Made by a program: the position numbers and the translations under genes | Notes under the pieces: model-generated | Database searches by the model: none | Told to the model about the DNA's origin: nothing | Seen by the model: only the letters and a program-made list of their open reading frames with translations | Shown here: positions 32,464 to 41,560 of the stretch, piece after piece | How the letters are laid out: every line of letters starts with the position of its first letter | Numbering within the stretch: position 1 is the first letter of the stretch | Source of the DNA: Elioraea sp. Yellowstone | GTDB lineage: Bacteria; Pseudomonadota; Alphaproteobacteria; Acetobacterales; Acetobacteraceae | NCBI RefSeq assembly: GCF_006704265.1 | Contig: NZ_VIKA01000014.1 | Location: 1-42,272 of the forward strand | Direction: 5' to 3' | DNA: 42,272 nt

Positions 32464-33348
32464 ATGGACACCACCGCGGAGGCGCCGCCGATCGTCCCGG
32501 ATCCCGCCGATCCGCGCCTGACCCGGCGCGTGCGCGGGATCGACCACACGGGCGCGCCGGTGGAGACCAGCGTCACCGTGGAGCGGCCGCTGACGCTGTT
32601 CCTGAACGGGCAGGAGATCGTCACGATGATGACGATCGGCGACTACCCGGAGTATCTCGCGCTCGGCTACCTCCTGAACCAGAACATGCTGCGCCCGGAC
32701 GACGAGGTGACGGGCGTCGAGTACGACGCCGAGCTCGAGGTGGTGGTGGTGCGCACCGCGCGCACGACCGACTACCAGGAGAAGCTCAGGAAGAAGACGC
32801 TCACCTCGGGCTGCGCCCAGGGCACCGCGTTCGGCGACCTGATGGAGCGCTTCGAACGCGTGCGGCTGCCCGAGGCGGAGCTGCGCACCTCCTGGCTCTA
32901 CCGCCTCACCCACGCGATCAACACCATGCCCAGCCTCTATCTCGAGGCCGGCGCCATCCACGGCTGCGTGCTCTGCCGCGAGGACCGGCCGCTCGTCTAC
33001 ATGGAGGATGTCGGCCGGCACAACGCGGTGGACAAGATCGCCGGCTACATGTTTCGATACAAGATCGATCCGGCGGACAAGATCTTCTACACCACCGGCA
33101 GGCTCACCTCCGAGATGGTGATCAAGACCGTGCAGATGGGCATTCCGATCCTGGTGAGCCGGTCGGGCTTCACCGCCTGGGGGGTGGAGCTCGCGCGCCA
33201 GGCCGGGCTGACACTGATCGGACGCGCGCGCGGCAAGCGCTTCCTCGCCCTCTCGGGCGAGCACCGCATCGTCTTCGACCTCGACCCCGCCCATGTCGAG
33301 GAGGAGAGTGCGAAGCACCGGCGCAAGGGATCGCGTGACGACGCGTGA
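32464..33348 (+). CDS. fdhD: Formate dehydrogenase sulfurtransferase FdhD
   Basis: 294 residues. Transfers sulfur from a cysteine desulfurase to the molybdenum cofactor of formate dehydrogenase, making the sulfido ligand needed for activity. The conserved regions [36 protein letters not shown] (Cys168, Cys171), [12 protein letters not shown] and [12 protein letters not shown] are present. The functional loop reads TSGCAQG with a single cysteine (Cys117), where E. coli has a CxxC pair. An upstream in-frame ATG at 32425 is possible but also lacks a ribosome binding site. mobA overlaps its 3' end, so the two are cotranscribed. Confidence 0.95.
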
Positions 33349-33970
33349 GCACCCGCCCACGCTCGGCGTCCTGCTCGCCGGCGGGCTCGCGCGGCGCATG
33401 GGCGGCGGCGACAAGGGGCTGAAGCGGATCGGCGGCGAGACGATCATCGCCCGCGTGATCGCCCGGCTCGGCCCGCAATGCGCCGGGCTCATCGTCAACG
33501 CGAACGGCGATCCCGCCCGACTTGCCTTTCTCGGCCTGCCGGTGGTGCCGGACGACGTGCCGGGCTTCGCGGGCCCGCTCGCGGGCGTGCTCGCCGCGCT
33601 CGACTGGGCCGCGCGCGAACTATCCGCCATCGAATGGGTGGCGAGCGCGCCGACCGACTGTCCGTTCCTGCCGCGCGACCTCGTGGCCCGGCTGCACGCC
33701 GCGCGCAGGGCCGCGAACGTCCCCCTCGCCTGCGCGCGCTCGGGCGGCCGGACCCACCCGCCCGTCGGGCTCTGGCCGGTGGCCTTGCGGGCCGATCTGC
33801 GCCGCGCGCTGACAGTGGAGAACGAGCGCAAGATCGACCGCTGGACCGCGCGCCACGGCATCGCCTGCGCCGACTGGGAAGCCACACCCGTCGATCCCTT
33901 CTTCAACGCCAACACACCCGAGGACCTCGCCGAGGCGGAGGCGCTGCTCGCCGCCCATGCCGACCCGTAG
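33335..33970 (+). CDS. mobA: Molybdenum cofactor guanylyltransferase
   Basis: 211 residues. Adds GMP to molybdopterin to give the guanine dinucleotide cofactor (MGD) used by the formate dehydrogenase. The nucleotidyltransferase start [19 protein letters not shown], the NANGDPAR segment, [10 protein letters not shown] (metal-binding Asp), [11 protein letters not shown] and the ending [18 protein letters not shown] are diagnostic. GTG at 33335 with AAGGGA upstream is preferred over ATG 33293. The start overlaps fdhD by 14 bp. Confidence 0.95.
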
Positions 33971-33983
33971 CCTGCACAGAGGC

Positions 33984-34012
33984 TTGAAATTCCTCGCGGA
34001 ACGTCCCATGAC
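33984..34012 (+). promoter_or_regulatory. Candidate promoter of the 41-residue membrane protein
   Basis: TTGAAA (33984-33989), 17-bp spacer, CATGAC (34007-34012). It shares CTTGAA-N18-CATG with the fdhD promoter. Transcription would start about 25 nt before the ATG, leaving room for the AAGGGAG at 34025-34031. Confidence 0.35.
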
Positions 34013-34044
34013 ATGCGGCAGGGCAAGGGAGCGATGGGCCAGCC

Positions 34045-34170
34045 ATGAAAGCCTTCATCGTCGCCGTGATCGTCGCCGTGGCACTCGCGGTGGGCGGGTG
34101 GTACGTGCTGGACAATCAGTTCCAGCAGAACGCGCAGAACGCGTTCTCCACCTCGAGCGTGCGCCTCTGA
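34045..34170 (+). CDS. Small single-pass membrane protein (41 residues)
   Basis: A 41-residue open reading frame from ATG 34045 to TGA 34168-34170. Residues 3-22 form one hydrophobic helix (MKAFIVAVIVAVALAVGGWY), followed by a short polar tail rich in Gln/Asn that ends FSTSSVRL. The composition is unlike chance translation of this Arg/Ala/Pro-rich DNA. AAGGGAG lies about 14 bases upstream and a promoter-like pair precedes it. Small proteins of this shape with an ending like STSxVRL occur in other Alphaproteobacteria as far as I recall, but no function is known to me. It is next to mobA (74 bp) and ends 6 bp before the convergent moeA, inside the formate dehydrogenase island, so a helper role at the membrane enzyme is a possibility only. 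Confidence 0.75.
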   Translation: MKAFIVAVIVAVALAVGGWYVLDNQFQQNAQNAFSTSSVRL

Positions 34171-34176
34171 CGCCGG

Positions 34177-35433
34177 CTACAGCAGCTCGCTGAACGGCAG
34201 GAACGCGACCGTCTCGCCGGGCGCGAGGGTGGTCGTCGTCTCGCCGAGCTCCACCAGACCGTCGGTCTCCACGAGCGAGGAGAGCAGGCCGGCGCCTTCG
34301 CGCGGGAAGTTGCGCGCCTCGGGGACGCCGTCCGCGCCGGTGGCGAGACTTGCGCGCACATACTCCCGCCGCCCGGCCTTCTTGCGGTAGCGGAACCCCG
34401 CGCGCACCGGGAAGCGGAGCGGCGGCGGCGCTGCCCCGCCCGCGAGCAGCAGCGCGAGCGGGCGGACGATGTGCACGAAGGTGACCACCACCGCCACCGG
34501 GTTGCCCGGCAGCCCGGCGAAGGCGGTTCCGCCGACCTGGCCGAGGGCGACCGGCCGGCCGGGCTTGATCGCGAGACGCCAGAAGAACAGCGACCCGGCC
34601 GCCTCCACCGCGGCCTTGACGTGGTCCTCCTCGCCGGTGGAGACGCCGCCCGAGGTCAGCAGGAGGTCATGCGCCGGCGCGGCCGCAGCGAGCGCCTCGG
34701 CGACCGCGGCGCGCGAGTCCGGCAGGATGCCGAGATCGGTCACGGCGCAGCCGAGCCGTGTCAGCGCGGCGTGCAGGGTGAAGCGGTTGCTGTCGTACAC
34801 CTTCAGCGGCGGCAGGGGCGCGCCCGGCGGTGCAAGCTCGTCGCCGGTGGAGAACAGCGCCACGCGCAGCCGCGTGCGCACCGCGAGCGTGTCGCGCCCA
34901 AGGGCGGCCGCCATGCCGACATCCTGGGGACGCAAGAGCCGCCCCGCCGGCAGCGCGGTCGCGCCCGCGCGCACGTCCTCGCCGGCCGAGCGCGCATTCG
35001 CCCCGCGCTTGAGTCCGGCCGGCAACCGCACGCGGCCATCGGGCAGCAGCACGGCGTCCTCCTGCATCATCACCGTGTCCGCGCCCTCGGGCATGGGTGC
35101 GCCGGTGAAGATGCGGATCGCCTCGCCCGGCCGGATCGGCCGGGCGAGCGCCCCCCCGGCCGGCACACGCCCGCCCACCCGCAGGATGGTCTCGGCGTCG
35201 GGCGCGAGGTCGGCGTGGCGCAGCGCGTAGCCGTCCACCGCGCTGTTGGCGAAGGGCGGCAGGTCGACCGGCGCCACCAGGTCCTCGGCGAGGATGCGCC
35301 CGACCGCCGCATGCAGCGGCACCTGCTCGATGCCGGTGACCGGCCCGAGACGCACGCGCAGTTCCGCGACCGCCACATCCACCGGCAGGAGCGCGGCCCC
35401 AAAGGCGAAGCAGTCGTCCGAGAGCTGGGCCAC
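34177..35433 (-). CDS. moeA: Molybdopterin molybdenumtransferase
   Basis: 418 residues. Inserts molybdate into adenylated molybdopterin in the cytoplasm. Typical segments in order: DLPPFANSAVDGYAL, RIFTGAPMPEGADTVMMQED, FSTGDEL, VYDSN, LLLTSGGVSTGEEDHVKAAVE, AIKPGRPVALG and GLPGNPVAVVVTF, then the C-terminal beta domain (FRYRKKAGRREYVRASL). The start is GTG at 35433, five bases after the mobB stop; there is no ATG near. It is cotranscribed with mobB and convergent with the 41-residue gene. Confidence 0.95.
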   Translation of the reverse strand: MAQLSDDCFAFGAALLPVDVAVAELRVRLGPVTGIEQVPLHAAVGRILAEDLVAPVDLPPFANSAVDGYALRHADLAPDAETILRVGGRVPAGGALARPIRPGEAIRIFTGAPMPEGADTVMMQEDAVLLPDGRVRLPAGLKRGANARSAGEDVRAGATALPAGRLLRPQDVGMAAALGRDTLAVRTRLRVALFSTGDELAPPGAPLPPLKVYDSNRFTLHAALTRLGCAVTDLGILPDSRAAVAEALAAAAPAHDLLLTSGGVSTGEEDHVKAAVEAAGSLFFWRLAIKPGRPVALGQVGGTAFAGLPGNPVAVVVTFVHIVRPLALLLAGGAAPPPLRFPVRAGFRYRKKAGRREYVRASLATGADGVPEARNFPREGAGLLSSLVETDGLVELGETTTTLAPGETVAFLPFSELL

Positions 35434-35438
35434 GCGCG

Positions 35439-35957
35439 TCAGCCCGCCGCGCGCGCGGGCAGCCCGATGCCGACCGCGCGCAGCACGAAGCCGGCGATCG
35501 CCTCGACGTCGTCGAGGCCGAAGCGCGGCAGCGGGCAGCCGGGCATCTCGCCGTCCGAGGCGACCGCGAGGATCTGCGGATCCTCGGGGTAGAGCGGCGC
35601 CTTGCCGGTGACCGCGCGCCAGACCTCGAGCTTCGGGTGCGGGTTGCGCTTGAAGCCCTCGACCAGGACGAGATCGACCGGGCTCATCCGCGCCAGCAGC
35701 TCCGGCAGGCTGGGCTCGGGTACGCCGCGCAGCTCGTGCATCAGCGCCCAGCGATTGGCCGAGCCGATCAGCACCTCGGTGGCGCCCGCGCGACGGTGCT
35801 CGTAGCTGTCCTTGCCCGGCCGATCGACGTCGAAGCCGTGATGCGCATGCTTCACGGTGGAGACGGTGAGGCCGCGCGCGACCAGCGCCGGGATCAGGCG
35901 CACGAGCAGCGTGGTCTTGCCCGAGCCCGACCAGCCGGTGATGCCGAACACCTTCAC
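35439..35957 (-). CDS. mobB: Molybdopterin-guanine dinucleotide biosynthesis GTPase MobB
   Basis: 172 residues. A small GTP-binding protein that assists MobA. P-loop GWSGSGKTT near the N-terminus, TVKHAHHGFDVDRPGKDS (the conserved switch-like region), and LVLVEGFKRNPHPKLEVWR are diagnostic. The preferred start is the GTG at 35957 giving MKVFGITGWSG; a TTG at 35969 would add four residues (Cys-Cys-Ala in them). It begins just past the terminator of the formate dehydrogenase operon, so it needs read-through or its own promoter. Confidence 0.94.
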   Translation of the reverse strand: MKVFGITGWSGSGKTTLLVRLIPALVARGLTVSTVKHAHHGFDVDRPGKDSYEHRRAGATEVLIGSANRWALMHELRGVPEPSLPELLARMSPVDLVLVEGFKRNPHPKLEVWRAVTGKAPLYPEDPQILAVASDGEMPGCPLPRFGLDDVEAIAGFVLRAVGIGLPARAAG

Positions 35958-35967
35958 GGCGCAACAC

Positions 35968-35998
35968 AACGGCCGGCGGACAGGGCCCGCCGGCCGTT
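35968..35998 (-). terminator. Hairpin terminator of the formate dehydrogenase operon
   Basis: A perfect 12-bp stem, AACGGCCGGCGG (35968-35979) and its complement (35987-35998), with a 7-nt loop. It lies 21 bp beyond the fdhC stop on the minus strand. The sequence after it on that strand is GTTGTGTTG, moderately T-rich, so it may terminate partially before mobB. Confidence 0.7.
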
Positions 35999-36018: not shown

Positions 36019-37050
36019 TCAGTCGGCGCCGGCGCTGCGGGCCCCCGGCGGCGCCGCGGCGGCGCGCCCGCCGCTCATCATCTCGTCCACCCACAGGCTG
36101 TGGTGCTCCTTCGCCCAGTTGAGATCGACCCGGCCCGTGCCCATGGCGGCGAAGGCGCCCTCCATGCCGAGCGAGCCGATATAGATATGGGCGAGGATGA
36201 TCGCGATCATCACCAGCGCGATGATGCCGTGCAACTGGATGGCAAGCTGCATGCCGGCGATGTCGGTGGCCCAGAACTGGAACGGGAACATCATGATGTA
36301 GCCGGTGACCGCGATCGCGGCACCGCCCAGCACCACCGACCAGAAGATCAGCTTCTGTCCCGCGTTGAACTTGCGCGCCGGCGGATGGCCATGGCCGATC
36401 AGCCCGCCGCCCTCGGCGAACCAGCGCGCATCGGTCGCGGAGGGCAGGTTGTCCTTGATCCAGAGCACCAGCATCAGCGCGACGCCGAGGGTGAAGGGGA
36501 AGGACAGGTAGTTGTGCGCGACCTTGGCGAGCTCCGACCACGCGGTGAAGGCGTCGGGCCCGATCAGCGGCAGCAGCAGCTCGCGCCCGAAGGTGATGTT
36601 GAGCCCGGTGATGCCGAGCACGATGAAGGTCGAGGCGGTGAGCCAGTGCGCGAAGCGCTCGACCCCGTTGAAGCGCTGGATGGTGCGCCCCGAGGGGCCG
36701 GCCTCGATGCGGATCGTGCCGCGCACCAGGTAGAAGATCGCCAGCACCGCCAGCATCCCGAGGATGGCGATGCCGCCGATCCACTTCATGGTGGAGCGCC
36801 AGAAGTCCTGGAAGTCGCGGCCTGCGGGCTGGATCAGCGTGGCCGCGCGCCGATCGGGGATGGTGACGCGGCCTTGCACGTTGCCCTGGAGGTAGTTGAA
36901 CAGCATCTGTTCGGTTGCCGCCGGCGGCGCGGCGGGCTGCTGCTGTGCGGCCGCCTCCGGCGCAGTCGCCGTCGCGGCCGCGAGACCGATCCCGACCCCC
37001 AGCACCAGCGCGACGAGGGCCGTGCGCAGCCGGGTCCTGATGCCCATCAT
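36019..37050 (-). CDS. fdhC: Formate dehydrogenase gamma subunit (cytochrome b)
   Basis: 343 residues. The membrane haem b subunit that takes electrons from the Fe-S subunit and reduces quinone. An N-terminal signal-like helix (residues 10-25, then APEAAAQQ) and a periplasmic stretch to about 86 precede four core helices (about 90-109, 139-157, 182-197, 232-253) and a fifth near 270-292. Candidate haem ligands are His135, His179, His274 and His288. This is longer than E. coli FdnI and resembles the FdhC type with an N-terminal extension. GGGAGGA lies 8 bases before the ATG. Confidence 0.94.
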   Translation of the reverse strand: MMGIRTRLRTALVALVLGVGIGLAAATATAPEAAAQQQPAAPPAATEQMLFNYLQGNVQGRVTIPDRRAATLIQPAGRDFQDFWRSTMKWIGGIAILGMLAVLAIFYLVRGTIRIEAGPSGRTIQRFNGVERFAHWLTASTFIVLGITGLNITFGRELLLPLIGPDAFTAWSELAKVAHNYLSFPFTLGVALMLVLWIKDNLPSATDARWFAEGGGLIGHGHPPARKFNAGQKLIFWSVVLGGAAIAVTGYIMMFPFQFWATDIAGMQLAIQLHGIIALVMIAIILAHIYIGSLGMEGAFAAMGTGRVDLNWAKEHHSLWVDEMMSGGRAAAAPPGARSAGAD

Positions 37051-37120: not shown

Positions 37121-37717
37121 TCAGCCCGCGACCATGTCCTTGTAGGCCGTGCGCCAGCCCCACGCGCCCGAACCGTAGCCGCGCGTGGTCACGCGCTCGG
37201 CGTAGATCTGGGCGATGATGTCGCCGTCGCCGGCGAGCAGGGCCTTGGTCGAGCACATCTCGGCGCAGAGCGGCAGCTTGCCCTCGGCGAGGCGGTTCGA
37301 GCCGTACTTCGCATATTCGGCAGGCGTGCTGTCGGCTTCCGGACCGCCGGCGCAGTAGGTGCACTTGTCCATCTTGCCGCGGCTGCCGAAGTTGCCGAGC
37401 CGCGGATACTGCGGCGCCCCGAACGGGCAGGCGTAGAAGCAGTAGCCGCAGCCGATGCACAGATCCTTGGAGTGCAGCACCACCCCGTCGGCCGTGGTGT
37501 AGAAGCAGTCGACCGGGCAGACCGCCGCGCAAGGCGCGTCGGTGCAGTGCATGCACGCCATCGAGATCGAGCGCTCGCCCGGCTTGCCGTCGTTGATCGT
37601 GACGACGCGCCGGCGGTTGATGCCCCAGGGCACCTCGTGCTCGTTCTTGCACGCCGTGACGCAGGCATTGCACTCGATGCAACGGTCCGCGTCGCAGAGG
37701 AACTTCATGCGGGCCAT
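37121..37717 (-). CDS. fdhB: Formate dehydrogenase beta subunit, four [4Fe-4S]
   Basis: 198 residues. Carries electrons from FdhA to FdhC. Sixteen cluster cysteines are visible in four groups: Cys13/16/19/23; Cys55/58/63/67; Cys87/90/93/97; and Cys119/122 with Cys151/155. Unlike E. coli FdnH it has no C-terminal transmembrane helix, so it is held to the membrane by FdhC alone. No signal peptide: it is expected to be exported with FdhA by the TAT system as a complex. GGGAGGAGAG precedes the ATG; 23 bp separate it from fdhA. Confidence 0.95.
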   Translation of the reverse strand: MARMKFLCDADRCIECNACVTACKNEHEVPWGINRRRVVTINDGKPGERSISMACMHCTDAPCAAVCPVDCFYTTADGVVLHSKDLCIGCGYCFYACPFGAPQYPRLGNFGSRGKMDKCTYCAGGPEADSTPAEYAKYGSNRLAEGKLPLCAEMCSTKALLAGDGDIIAQIYAERVTTRGYGSGAWGWRTAYKDMVAG

Positions 37718-37740: not shown

Positions 37741-40677
37741 TCACGCCGCCCGCACCTGGCAGAGCGTGCATTTGGCCTCCTGCATCGAGGTGACCGGGTC
37801 GTAGCCGTAGGTCGTGACCGTGTTCACGCTCTCGCCGAGCACGATCGGGTCGGTGCCCGGCGGATACTTGCCGCGCTGATCCTCCTGCATGAAGTGGCCG
37901 GCGAAGTGGAACGGCATCCACACCACGCCGCGGCCGACGCGTTCGGTGACCAGCGCCTTGACGCGGATGAACCGGTCGCGCGGCATCTCCGGCCCCTGCA
38001 CCAGCACCCAGGCGCCGTCGACGATGTTGCGCTCCGCCGCGTCCGCCGGATTGATCTCGATGAAGCTCTCCTGCTGGAGCTCGGCGAGCCACTTGTTCGA
38101 GCGCGTCTCCTCGCCGCCGCCCTCGTACTCGACCAGGCGGCCGGAGCTGATCACCAGGGGGAAGTCGCGCGCGATGTTGCGCTCGACCGCCTGCTTCTGG
38201 ACCGTGTGGCCGATGTTCGGCACGCGGTGGGCGACGAAGTTGTCGCGGGTCGGATACTTCGCCACCAGATCGGGCCGCGGCGTGTAGATCGGCTCGCGGT
38301 GCACCGGGATCGGATCGGGCAGGTTCCAGGCATTCGCCCGCGCCTTGCCGTTGCCGAACGGGATGCAGCCGTGCTCGAGCGCGACCCGCTGGATGCCGCC
38401 CGAGAGGTCGGTCGCCCAGGAGACCGTATCGGGGTTGTTGCCGCCGATGCGCAGGATCGTCTCCAGCTCGGCCTGGGTGAGATCCTTGTCCCAGCCGAGT
38501 CTCTTCAGCACGCCGTAGGTGAACTGCGGATAGCCGTCCTGGATCTCCGAGCCCTTGGAGTAGCTGCCCTCGGCGAGCAGGGTCTGGCCGTTGTGCTCGA
38601 CGCCGAAGCGCGCGCGGAACGTGCCGCCGCCATCCTTGACGTGCAGATTGGTGTTGTAGAGCTGGTGCGTGCCCGGATGGCGGTACTCGGGCTTGCCCCA
38701 GCAGGGCCAGGGCAGCCCGTAGTAGTCGCCGCGCACCTCCTCGGGCGCGTCCGGCCCGGCGCGCAGCGTCACCAGGTCGAAGTGCTTCTGGTGGCGCATA
38801 TGCGCCTTCAGCCGCTCGGGCGACTGGCCGCAATAGCCGGTCGACCAGCCGCCGGCGTTGATCTCGCGCAGGACGCTCTCGGCCACCGGCTCCTTGCCCT
38901 TCACCTCGATGTTCTTGAACATCTCGGAGGCGAAGCCGAGCTTCTCGGCGAGCCGGTAGAGCACCTCGTAGTCGTTCCTGCTCTCGAAGATCGGCTTGAC
39001 GATCTGTTCGCCCCACTGCAGCGAACGGTTCGAGGCGGTGCGGCTGCCGGAGCACTCGAACTGCGTGCAGATCGGCAGCAGGTAGGTGCCCTCGCGCCGT
39101 TCGGCCAGCACCGCGAAGGTGGTGGGATGCGGATCGGCGACCACCAGAAGGTCGAGCTTGGCGAGCGCCTTGGCCGCCTCCGGCATGCGGGTGACCGTGT
39201 TGCCGCCGTGGCCGAACACCACCATGCCGCGCAGGTTCGGCTGGTCGCGCAGCTCGCCCTCGGGCAGCAGCGTGGCGTCGAGATAGCGGGTCGAGGTGAT
39301 GCCCGCCGTCTCCATCAGCTTCTTGCGCGCCGCCTCGTCCGCGCCGGCCTTGCCGAAGCGGTCACGCAGATACTCGTACGAGACGTTCCAGACCCGGCCC
39401 CAGTGCCGCCAGGCGCCCTCGTCGAGCCCGTAGTAGAGCGGCAGCGTGGTGTTGTCGACGCCGAGATCGGTGGCACCCTGCACGTTGCAGTGGCCGCGGA
39501 AGATGTTCGCCCCGGTGCCGGGCGCGCCCACGTTGCCGGTGGCGAGCAGCAGGATGCAGGCGGCGCGCACGTTCGCCGTGCCGACCGTCTTCTGCGTCAT
39601 GCCCATGCACCAGACGAGCGTGGCCGGCTTCTGCTTGGCGAACATCTCCGCCACCTTGCGGAGCTGCGCGCCCGGCACGCCGGTGACGCGCTCTACCTCG
39701 TCCGGGGTCCACTTCGCGACTTCCTTGCGGACGTCGTCCATGCCGTACACCCGCTGGCGGATGAACTCCTTGTCCTCCCAGCCGTTCTCGAAGATGTGCC
39801 AGAGGATGCCCCAGAGGGTCGGGATGTCGGTGCCGGGGCGGATGCGCACATACTCGGTCGCGTGCGCGGCCGTGCGGGTGAAGCGCGGCTCGATCACGAC
39901 GAAGTTGGCGCGGTTCTTCTCCTTGCCCTGCAGCAGGTGCTGCAGGCTGACCGGGTGCGCCTCGGCGGGGTTGCCGCCCATGATGACGATGGTCTTGGAG
40001 TTGCGGATGTCGTTGTAGGAGTTGGTCTGCGCGCCGTAGCCCCAGGTGTTGGCCACCCCCGCCACCGTGGTCGAGTGGCAGATGCGCGCCTGGTGGTCGA
40101 CGTTGTTGGTGCCCCAGAACGCCGCGAACTTGCGGAACAGGTAGGCGCCCTCGTTCGAGAACTTGGCCGAGCCGAGGAAGAAGATCCCGTCCGGCCCCGC
40201 CTCCTCGCGGATCTTCAGCATGCGGTCGCCGATCTCGTTGATCGCCTGATCCCACGAGATCCGTTGCCACTGCCCGCCGGCCAGCTTCATCGGGTACTTC
40301 AGCCGGCGGTCGCCATGCACGAGTTCGCGCACCGATGCGCCCTTGGCGCAGTGCGTGCCCCGGTTGATCGGGCTGTCCCAGGCCGGCTCCTGGCCGACCC
40401 AGACGCCGTTCTGCACCTCGGCGACCACCGTGCAGCCGACCGAGCAATGCGTGCAGATGTTCCTGCGCACCTCCACCGGCACGCCGGGCTGCATCGGCCC
40501 GGCCTCGGCGCGCTTCACCGTGCCGGCCGCGAGCCCGGCGACCGCGGCGAGCCCGCCCGCGGCGACGCCGGAGCGGCGCAGGAAGGCGCGCCGGTCGAGC
40601 GCGCCGGCGGAGAAGGATGCGAAGGCCTGGGCGAGACCGCCGCGGGCCCGGCTTGCGTCACTGCGCTTGATCAGCAT
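37741..40677 (-). CDS. fdhA: Formate dehydrogenase alpha subunit (Mo/W-bis-MGD, cysteine type)
   Basis: 978 residues; oxidises formate to CO2 in the periplasm. The TAT signal contains LDRRAFLRRSG (Arg29-Arg30) and a hydrophobic stretch to about 55. The [4Fe-4S] ligands are Cys75, Cys78, Cys82 and Cys110. The metal ligand is Cys200 in QARICHST, encoded by TGC, so this is not a selenoprotein; the neighbouring His201 is the expected catalytic histidine. WGYGAQTNSYNDIRNS, MGGNPAEAHPVS and the C-terminal MopB domain ending in TTYGYDPVTSMQEAKCTLC follow. AGGGAGGAAG precedes the ATG. It depends on TorD, FdhD and the Mob/Moe proteins encoded nearby. Confidence 0.97.
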   Translation of the reverse strand: MLIKRSDASRARGGLAQAFASFSAGALDRRAFLRRSGVAAGGLAAVAGLAAGTVKRAEAGPMQPGVPVEVRRNICTHCSVGCTVVAEVQNGVWVGQEPAWDSPINRGTHCAKGASVRELVHGDRRLKYPMKLAGGQWQRISWDQAINEIGDRMLKIREEAGPDGIFFLGSAKFSNEGAYLFRKFAAFWGTNNVDHQARICHSTTVAGVANTWGYGAQTNSYNDIRNSKTIVIMGGNPAEAHPVSLQHLLQGKEKNRANFVVIEPRFTRTAAHATEYVRIRPGTDIPTLWGILWHIFENGWEDKEFIRQRVYGMDDVRKEVAKWTPDEVERVTGVPGAQLRKVAEMFAKQKPATLVWCMGMTQKTVGTANVRAACILLLATGNVGAPGTGANIFRGHCNVQGATDLGVDNTTLPLYYGLDEGAWRHWGRVWNVSYEYLRDRFGKAGADEAARKKLMETAGITSTRYLDATLLPEGELRDQPNLRGMVVFGHGGNTVTRMPEAAKALAKLDLLVVADPHPTTFAVLAERREGTYLLPICTQFECSGSRTASNRSLQWGEQIVKPIFESRNDYEVLYRLAEKLGFASEMFKNIEVKGKEPVAESVLREINAGGWSTGYCGQSPERLKAHMRHQKHFDLVTLRAGPDAPEEVRGDYYGLPWPCWGKPEYRHPGTHQLYNTNLHVKDGGGTFRARFGVEHNGQTLLAEGSYSKGSEIQDGYPQFTYGVLKRLGWDKDLTQAELETILRIGGNNPDTVSWATDLSGGIQRVALEHGCIPFGNGKARANAWNLPDPIPVHREPIYTPRPDLVAKYPTRDNFVAHRVPNIGHTVQKQAVERNIARDFPLVISSGRLVEYEGGGEETRSNKWLAELQQESFIEINPADAAERNIVDGAWVLVQGPEMPRDRFIRVKALVTERVGRGVVWMPFHFAGHFMQEDQRGKYPPGTDPIVLGESVNTVTTYGYDPVTSMQEAKCTLCQVRAA

Positions 40678-40701: not shown

Positions 40702-40908
40702 TCAGCGCTCGTAGCGGTTGGTGCGATAGAAGGCCTGCACATGCGCCGAGTTCGCCTGGTAGCGGGCCTTGCGGGCCTCCTCCCGGCTCTCGCGCGCGGC
40801 TGCGCCCGTCGCCCCGGCGATCGGCAGCGTCGCCGCCGCGGCGCCGGCGGCGCCGAGCGTGCGCAGGAAGCGCCGGCGTGCCCCGGCCTCGTTCGTCTGC
40901 TTCGTCAT
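40702..40908 (-). CDS. Formate dehydrogenase region TAT-signal protein
   Basis: 68 residues. The N-terminus ARRRFLRTLGAAGAAAATLPIAG is a twin-arginine signal (Arg11-13), followed by a short charged segment REEARKARYQANSAHVQAFYRTNRYER. This matches the small 'formate dehydrogenase region TAT target' family that almost always precedes the catalytic subunit gene. Its exact role is not established; stabilising or delivering the enzyme at export is a common suggestion. AAGGGAGCG precedes the ATG. It sits 24 bp before fdhA in the same operon. Confidence 0.92.
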   Translation of the reverse strand: MTKQTNEAGARRRFLRTLGAAGAAAATLPIAGATGAAARESREEARKARYQANSAHVQAFYRTNRYER

Positions 40909-40948: not shown

Positions 40949-41560
40949 TTACGCCGGCAGCGCGAAGGCCTCCGTTTCGATCGCGATGAACGCGCGCCCC
41001 AGCCGGCCGACCGCGCGGTAGAACCGCGCCGCCCGGGCCTCCTCGAGGTCACCGAAGAACCGTTCCGCCCACGGGCCGATATGGCGCTCGAAGAAACGCC
41101 GGTCCTGGCCGGGCGCGCCGTCGCCGAGGCTGCCCTCGATCAGCCCCGCCATCACCTCGCAGAGCATCGCGATGTGGTCCTCGGGTTCGGCGACGCCTTC
41201 GGCGCGGGTGATCCCGAGCGCAGCCAGGTCGCCGCGCAGCTTGGCGAGCGGCCGCTCGTGCAGGAACCCGGTCAGGTAGTAGCTGGCATAGGGCAGGAGC
41301 TCGCCGCGGCCGAGGCCGATGAAGAGGTCGTGGAACTCGCGTTCCACCGTCTCCGCTCGCGCCTCGCGCGCCGCCGCCGCGAGCGCGTCGAGCGCTTCGC
41401 CGAGACGCGTCCCGTCCCCGCCGAGCGCGCCAATCCGGCCGAGCAGCCCGGCATCCGCCGGGCGCGCGAGCAGCAGGCCGAGCAGCGCGTAGACGCGCGC
41501 ACGGCCCACTTCGGTCTCGCGATCCAGACCAGACGCCGCAGGATGGATCCCGACGTCCAC
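40949..41560 (-). CDS. TorD/DmsD family molybdoenzyme chaperone
   Basis: 203 residues, all-helical. It is expected to bind the TAT signal of FdhA and hold it until the cofactor is loaded. Family landmarks: REFHDLFIGLGRGELLPYASYYLTGFLHERPLAKLR and EPEDHIAMLCEVMAGL, with a C-terminal helix pair. The start is a GTG at 41560 without a strong ribosome binding site; no ATG is available nearby. It lies 40 bp before the TAT-signal gene, in one operon with fdhABC. Confidence 0.92.
   Translation of the reverse strand: MDVGIHPAASGLDRETEVGRARVYALLGLLLARPADAGLLGRIGALGGDGTRLGEALDALAAAAREARAETVEREFHDLFIGLGRGELLPYASYYLTGFLHERPLAKLRGDLAALGITRAEGVAEPEDHIAMLCEVMAGLIEGSLGDGAPGQDRRFFERHIGPWAERFFGDLEEARAARFYRAVGRLGRAFIAIETEAFALPA

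Follow-up and report, generated by a model that had tools for sequence, protein, structure and literature searches.

Does the short reading frame between mobA and moeA in Elioraea sp. Yellowstone encode a real protein and, if so, which enzyme does it serve? The frame belongs to a formate dehydrogenase locus in a stretch of 42,272 nucleotides (contig NZ_VIKA01000014.1), the whole of which we call the window. The original prediction was that it may encode a small subunit or assembly factor of the membrane formate dehydrogenase or of its maturation machinery. We find that the frame is a real, conserved gene, and that its product probably serves an FDH3-type membrane formate dehydrogenase as a small subunit or assembly helper that has gone unnoticed. 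The argument draws on the following features of the window:

32464..33348, + strand: fdhD (TIGR00129, 136.5 bits against a cut-off of 140.9, and NF001943)
33293..33970, + strand: mobA, start uncertain (TIGR02665, 210.5 bits, above cut-off)
34025..34031, + strand: AAGGGAG, a candidate ribosome-binding site at a long distance from the ATG (13 nt)
34045..34170, + strand: gene of the 41-aa small membrane protein, with one helix (residues 4-22) and the C-terminus FSTSSVRL
34177..35439, - strand: moeA, start uncertain, convergent with the small gene (NF007960, 416.4 bits against a cut-off of 440)
35439..35969, - strand: mobB (TIGR00176, above cut-off)
36019..37050, - strand: fdhC, cytochrome b subunit and proposed partner (TIGR01583, 150.6 bits against a cut-off of 115.85; 1kqf_C)
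37121..37717, - strand: fdhB, FDH3 beta subunit (NF038355, 338 bits against a cut-off of 240)
37741..40677, - strand: fdhA, catalytic subunit (TIGR01591, 462.6 bits, below the cut-off of 666; 9vap_A, 1254.8 bits)
40702..40908, - strand: 68-aa Tat-target-like protein (TIGR02811, 35.6 bits, below the cut-off of 48.45)
40949..41560, - strand: TorD-like chaperone (NF003442, below cut-off)

Along the window fdhD, mobA and the small gene point forward, and moeA, mobB, fdhC, fdhB, fdhA, the Tat-target gene and the torD-like gene follow on the other strand. By the profile labels of these neighbours the small gene lies between mobA and moeA, as described. FdhB exceeds the NF038355 cut-off, which assigns the locus to the FDH3 type, and a cytochrome b membrane subunit is present, as FdhC passes that of TIGR01583. 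FdhC has five hydrophobic segments, among them a signal-like one (residues 10-28) and an extra one (91-109) ahead of the FdnI-like core; no hydrophobic segment was found in FdhB. The 68-aa frame upstream of fdhA is a different small protein of the same locus.

The 126-nt frame runs from ATG to TGA at 34045-34170 on the + strand and encodes MKAFIVAVIVAVALAVGGWYVLDNQFQQNAQNAFSTSSVRL, so that its coordinates, sequence and C-terminal FSTSSVRL agree with the earlier description. The ATG at 34045 is the first start in its stop-to-stop frame, with no ATG, GTG or TTG upstream. A gap of 74 nt separates it from the mobA stop (33970), and it ends 6 nt short of the convergent moeA frame, whose 3′ end is at 34177. 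Two other open reading frames overlap it, at 33957-34193 (+) and 33903-34115 (-). Of the signals that had been claimed upstream, AAGGGAG is present, and the promoter-like pair did not hold up: there are 0 such sites in 33850-34260 (shuffled sequence: mean 0.0, sd 0.2). The gene is more likely to be transcribed together with mobA than from a promoter of its own, since the mobA stop overlaps the start of the small gene in 20 of the 47 homologous loci where mobA precedes it. The frame had also been called too short for common gene finders, which is right only in part, because some homologues of 41-66 aa are listed in public records as 'hypothetical protein'.

The first question is whether this is a gene at all. 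Searching with the single sequence gave matches in five of the six other genomes of the genus, at 49-73% identity (73% in G003 and 49-56% in four more), and none in the sixth (G002, 75% complete). A 12-row profile at E<=1e-3 found the small protein in 62 of the 249 genomes of a family sample and in 32 of the 385 of a class sample, 'family' and 'class' being the groupings used by the genome collection itself; the NCBI taxonomy places Elioraea in the Elioraeaceae, Acetobacterales. Homologues keep the frame and the C-terminal [F/Y]xTxxxRL motif. Substitutions are biased towards synonymous change: the 25 closest pairs, drawn from 48 sequences with a length of exactly 41 codons, have a pN/pS of 0.20-0.86. 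These pairs share sequences and are thus not independent. For the window gene and its nearest relative pS is 0.42 and pN 0.16. The other two forward frames show no uniform relation of pN to pS, and often it is the reverse. Shortness, GC-richness and a place in no curated family would suit a chance reading frame, yet frame, start, length, motif and neighbourhood are all conserved, and homologues with a conserved frame and pN/pS below 1 rule that reading out, leaving it next to no probability. Four individual matches do look false: G178 and G853 lie within longer frames (of 408 and 393 aa, and no formate dehydrogenase marker surrounds G853), and G042 and G309 cover the helix region alone. All four are still counted in the family, class and phylum tallies.

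The homologues share a general form: MKxF, about 20 hydrophobic residues and a tail with [F/Y]xTxxxR[L/V]. In an alignment of 61 members M1 never varies, and A15, L22 and R40 hardly do. Longer tails occur, with an NLVGPxW-like stretch in Methylobacterium and Sinorhizobium, and G481 has a form of 113 aa. In the window protein the predicted N-terminal transmembrane helix is borne out by a hydrophobic segment at residues 4-22 (Kyte-Doolittle mean 2.57 over 19 residues) and by an AlphaFold2 model with a helix at residues 2-26 (block-mean pLDDT 94 and 93 over residues 1-20) and a low-confidence tail (pLDDT 60-69). The protein is thus short with one membrane helix, as a small accessory respiratory subunit should be. 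We compared 86 sequences for topology, the window protein and 85 homologues (one, at L122, was left out as it is cut by a contig end). Each has one strong hydrophobic stretch; the N-terminus is positive in 81 of 86, and the tail charge is near neutral on average. This charge bias predicts an N-in/C-out topology. The twin-arginine motif is absent from the 41-aa protein.

With which genes is the small protein inherited? In the 249 family genomes, where FDH3 was called by an FdhB match at E<=1e-60, the small protein is in 62, FDH3 in 61 and both in 59, a nearly one-to-one co-occurrence. Put differently, 59 of the 61 FDH3-bearing genomes have the small protein, as against 3 of the 188 others; the Fisher P of 7e-51 overstates independence, since the sampled genomes are related, and switches within genera are the better argument. 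In four genera (g17, g21, g25 and g72) the FDH3 members have the small protein and the listed FDH3-less members are without it, including FdhD-bearing ones in two genera (four in g21, two in g72). FDH3 stands alone in G019, which has a weak candidate beside fdhC (27 bits), and in G088, where no small gene was found in the opened stretch. The reverse holds for G105 (77% complete), G231 and the probably false match in G178; G105 and G231 have no FDH3 match, possibly through incomplete assembly. Encoded and inherited with the enzyme, the small protein behaves, with these exceptions, as an accessory subunit should. However, copy number does not follow FDH3, as six genomes have two FdhB matches and one small-protein match (G118, G194, G200, G236, G240 and G264), and this counts against the subunit reading.

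The class sample extends the picture. FDH3 is in 56 of its 385 genomes, and the 12-row profile found the small protein in 29 of them; its three other matches are the helix-only G042 and G309, and G376, a homologue in a 74% complete genome. For the remaining 27 FDH3-bearing genomes we used a broader 61-row profile and opened the stretches of 23. Twenty of the 27 gained a homologue (G057, G300, G324, G328, G345, G356, G384, G397, G435, G481, G484, G500, G533, G535, G550, G553, G581, G605, G610 and G612), that of G300 not being near FDH3. Seven of the twenty are weak and were accepted partly on their position beside FDH3 genes; five of these reach E 0.005-0.12 with the 61-row profile (G345, G356, G397, G610 and G612), and G324 and G533 have no match at E<=1 with it and score 12.5 bits on the opened stretches. 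No small gene was found in the opened stretches of G354, G477 and G625, nor by the profile searches alone in G036, G313, G560 and G614. The total is 49 of 56 FDH3-bearing class genomes, or 42 excluding the seven weak ones. Since G088, G354, G477 and G625 have FDH3 and yielded no small gene, the protein is either not universal or diverges past recognition.

In a phylum sample 23 of 299 genomes match, and the matches outside the class are 4, three in one genus where the gene is close to fdhC, plus the probably false G853. Two FDH3 loci outside the class, in Variovorax RA8 (a Betaproteobacterium) and Halomonas PA16-9 (a Gammaproteobacterium), gave no convincing match. The Variovorax locus carries a 77-aa lipoprotein-like gene between fdhB and fdhC (L182:9636-9869, +).

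Named public records contain further homologues, which we found through their FDH3 loci by scanning small reading frames with the profile; tblastn of a 41-residue homologue against plasmid records had given no match. Where annotated they are called 'hypothetical protein'. In Pseudosulfitobacter pseudonitzschiae (41 aa, WP_263480987.1) the gene directly follows fdhC, and in Sagittula sp. P11 (42 aa, WP_256388408.1) the order is fdhA-fdhB-fdhC-cytochrome c-small gene with a 4-nt overlap. In Azospirillum lipoferum 4B (66 aa, WP_014189535.1) it occupies the opposite end of the operon, ahead of torD. Microvirga terrae has a 63-aa protein (WP_173946017.1), and in an unannotated record of Methylobacterium bullatum a 67-aa frame comes after one that we read as fdhC. 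The 70-aa frame of Sinorhizobium meliloti LMB1, which is absent from the record's (incomplete) gene table, has fdhC on one side and moeA-mobA-fdhD on the other, an arrangement close to that of the window. No small protein was found in the stretch from Bradyrhizobium sp. CW1.

We fetched the surroundings of 86 homologues. The 62 family loci are the 63 profile places minus the window and G178, plus G005 (a single-sequence match); the 24 class loci come from 33 places, leaving out the window and eight partial-length matches (G293, G306, G565, G432, G042, G403, G578 and G309). In 78 of the 86 loci (58 of 62 family, 20 of 24 class) fdhA, B, C or D is in the fetched stretch, which is far from the scatter without any link to formate dehydrogenase that would have told against the prediction. 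The kind of link differs. Counting fdhA, B or C alone gives 25 of 62 family and 20 of 24 class loci, and counting FdhD gives 48 of 62 and 5 of 24. In the family the link is thus often to fdhD-mobA only, with fdhABC elsewhere in the genome, and it counts against preferring the enzyme to the cofactor machinery that in most of the 37 family loci without fdhA/B/C in the stretch fdhD-mobA is the only visible link. Eight loci show no fdhA-D in the stretch: L070, L090, L127 and L147, whose genomes carry FDH3 at another place, a point against the subunit reading; L092 and L111, which lie at contig ends; and L138 (a 3.9-kb contig) and L146, both beside cytochrome c/WD40 or WD40 genes.

The gene directly upstream, with neighbours called by a codon-usage script, is mobA in 47 of the 86 loci, a cytochrome c/WD40 gene in 11, fdhC in 5, an ABC-transporter-like gene in 3, a divergent gene in 6 and another same-strand gene in 3; in 11 there is none. 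Besides the 20 overlaps with mobA, such an overlap of stop and start occurs in 2 of the 11 cytochrome c/WD40 cases. If a gene changes its operon but not its enzyme, the best explanation is that it is tied to that enzyme.

These neighbourhoods hold some features of their own. In many FDH3 loci of other genera (e.g. L139, L141, L137, L145 and L184:10962-12242) the small gene directly adjoins cytochrome c and WD40 genes, either fused or separate, whose product is a possible electron partner of FDH3. In three loci (L104, L135 and L136) genes that read as tungstate/molybdate ABC-transporter-like precede the small gene, which converges with fdhC. The divergent gene in L070, L081, L083 and L090 is of one family, SMP-30/gluconolactonase-like by reading, and two of these loci have no nearby formate dehydrogenase gene. 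G594 has two copies of the small gene (L127 and L147), both away from its two FDH3 loci.

Does the small protein serve the enzyme or the machinery that matures its cofactor? It follows fdhD-mobA in the window, and its frequent place directly behind mobA (those 47 of 86 loci) would suit a partner of FdhD or MobA that serves the molybdenum or tungsten cofactor in general. FdhD separates the two: it matches in 79 of the 249 family genomes, and the small protein accompanies it in 58 of the 60 that also have FDH3, as against 2 of the 19 that do not (G105 and G231). With 17 of the 19 lacking it, presence follows the enzyme more than the cofactor machinery. In most of the fetched class loci, moreover, the small gene is not beside fdhD or mobA, and in other genomes its upstream neighbour is fdhC or a gene for a c-type cytochrome in place of mobA. 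Of the two homes originally proposed, the enzyme is therefore favoured over the maturation machinery, a cofactor role being very improbable.

The cytochrome c/WD40 neighbours suggest another role, a docking piece for the periplasmic protein encoded next door that lets FDH3 pass electrons to cytochrome c. Such a gene is directly upstream in 11 of the 86 loci, its stop overlaps the start in two of them and in Sagittula, and the same gene order recurs in many further class loci. In the family loci, however, the window included, no cytochrome c/WD40 gene lies beside the small gene, and we regard this explanation as improbable, if a little less so than the cofactor role.

A subunit or assembly factor of the membrane enzyme, as proposed, is supported by the conserved frame and the near one-to-one co-occurrence in the family. 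Which of the two is it? An FDH3-specific membrane assembly factor would act at haem uptake by FdhC or at docking of FdhA-FdhB, and would be missing from the mature enzyme. It would show the same co-occurrence and linkage, and mobA, the most frequent upstream gene, is itself a maturation gene. The five loci where the small gene is directly behind fdhC and the conserved short motif on the periplasmic side, which suits a fixed contact, speak against this without being decisive. We consider an assembly factor unlikely, though it deserves to be taken seriously.

The reading we prefer, with moderate confidence, is that of a dedicated single-helix accessory subunit of FDH3. The helix would span the inner membrane with the N-terminus in the cytoplasm and the short xTxxxRL tail in the periplasm, and it may pack against the cytochrome b subunit FdhC. 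The tail would then sit where the periplasmic FdhA-FdhB unit meets the membrane, and could stabilise this junction or the nearby haems. The extra segment of FdhC (91-109) and an FdhB without a hydrophobic segment are points for FdhC as the partner; we infer both the binding and the stabilising role.

A bolder version is put forward tentatively and could well prove wrong. FDH3 might have four subunits, the fourth having escaped notice since its gene is so small and shifts from one neighbouring operon to another. Its periplasmic xTxxxRL tail might help to set the electron exit, to quinone or to a neighbouring cytochrome c, and co-expression might be needed for an intact membrane-coupled complex. 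An overlooked membrane partner, if real, would bear on how the periplasmic formate dehydrogenase unit is coupled to the membrane. The homologues also give annotators a family to model.

No curated family describes the protein so far. The window protein reaches no Pfam or NCBIfam cut-off; the sole Pfam match of the single sequence, NVEALA (PF14055), was rejected at 11.9 bits against a gathering cut-off of 27. In the set of 61 members each of four Pfam families finds a single member (E 0.0006-0.009), and NCBIfam finds none. Solved structures gave only weak matches, the best at E 0.21. A partial literature search brought up no published description of such a protein, an absence that is weak evidence. 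TIGR02811, 'formate dehydrogenase region TAT target', also describes a tiny protein of formate dehydrogenase loci, but it does not match the 41-aa protein, which has a membrane helix and a short tail.

E. coli formate dehydrogenase-N (FdnGHI) is a three-subunit enzyme whose beta subunit carries its own membrane helix, and we know of no small subunit reported for it. Its cytochrome b subunit resembles the window FdhC (1kqf, 4.2e-20), and unlike its beta subunit the window FdhB has no membrane helix. The closest solved relative of FdhA (1254.8 bits) and FdhB (325.8 bits) is Shewanella oneidensis FdhAB (9VAP), in which only chains A and B were matched, with no match to the small-protein profile or FdhC at the thresholds used. 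This FdhAB is described as an oxygen-tolerant tungsten enzyme and discussed for CO2 reduction (PMC13397495).

The nearest parallels are found among the terminal oxidases. CydX and CcoM are single-helix small partners of such oxidases (PMC12719787), and CioY of Campylobacter was found by synteny and shown to bind its oxidase (PMC11955535). No Pfam match links the window protein or 60 homologues to such a family of small subunits. The enzyme here is a formate dehydrogenase, unlike in those cases. If our reading is right, formate dehydrogenase would join the respiratory enzymes with a single-helix helper, the examples cited being terminal oxidases. Like CydX, CcoM and CioY, the small protein is tiny, has one helix and is encoded beside a respiratory membrane enzyme; we regard the three as analogues, and it may work as they do.
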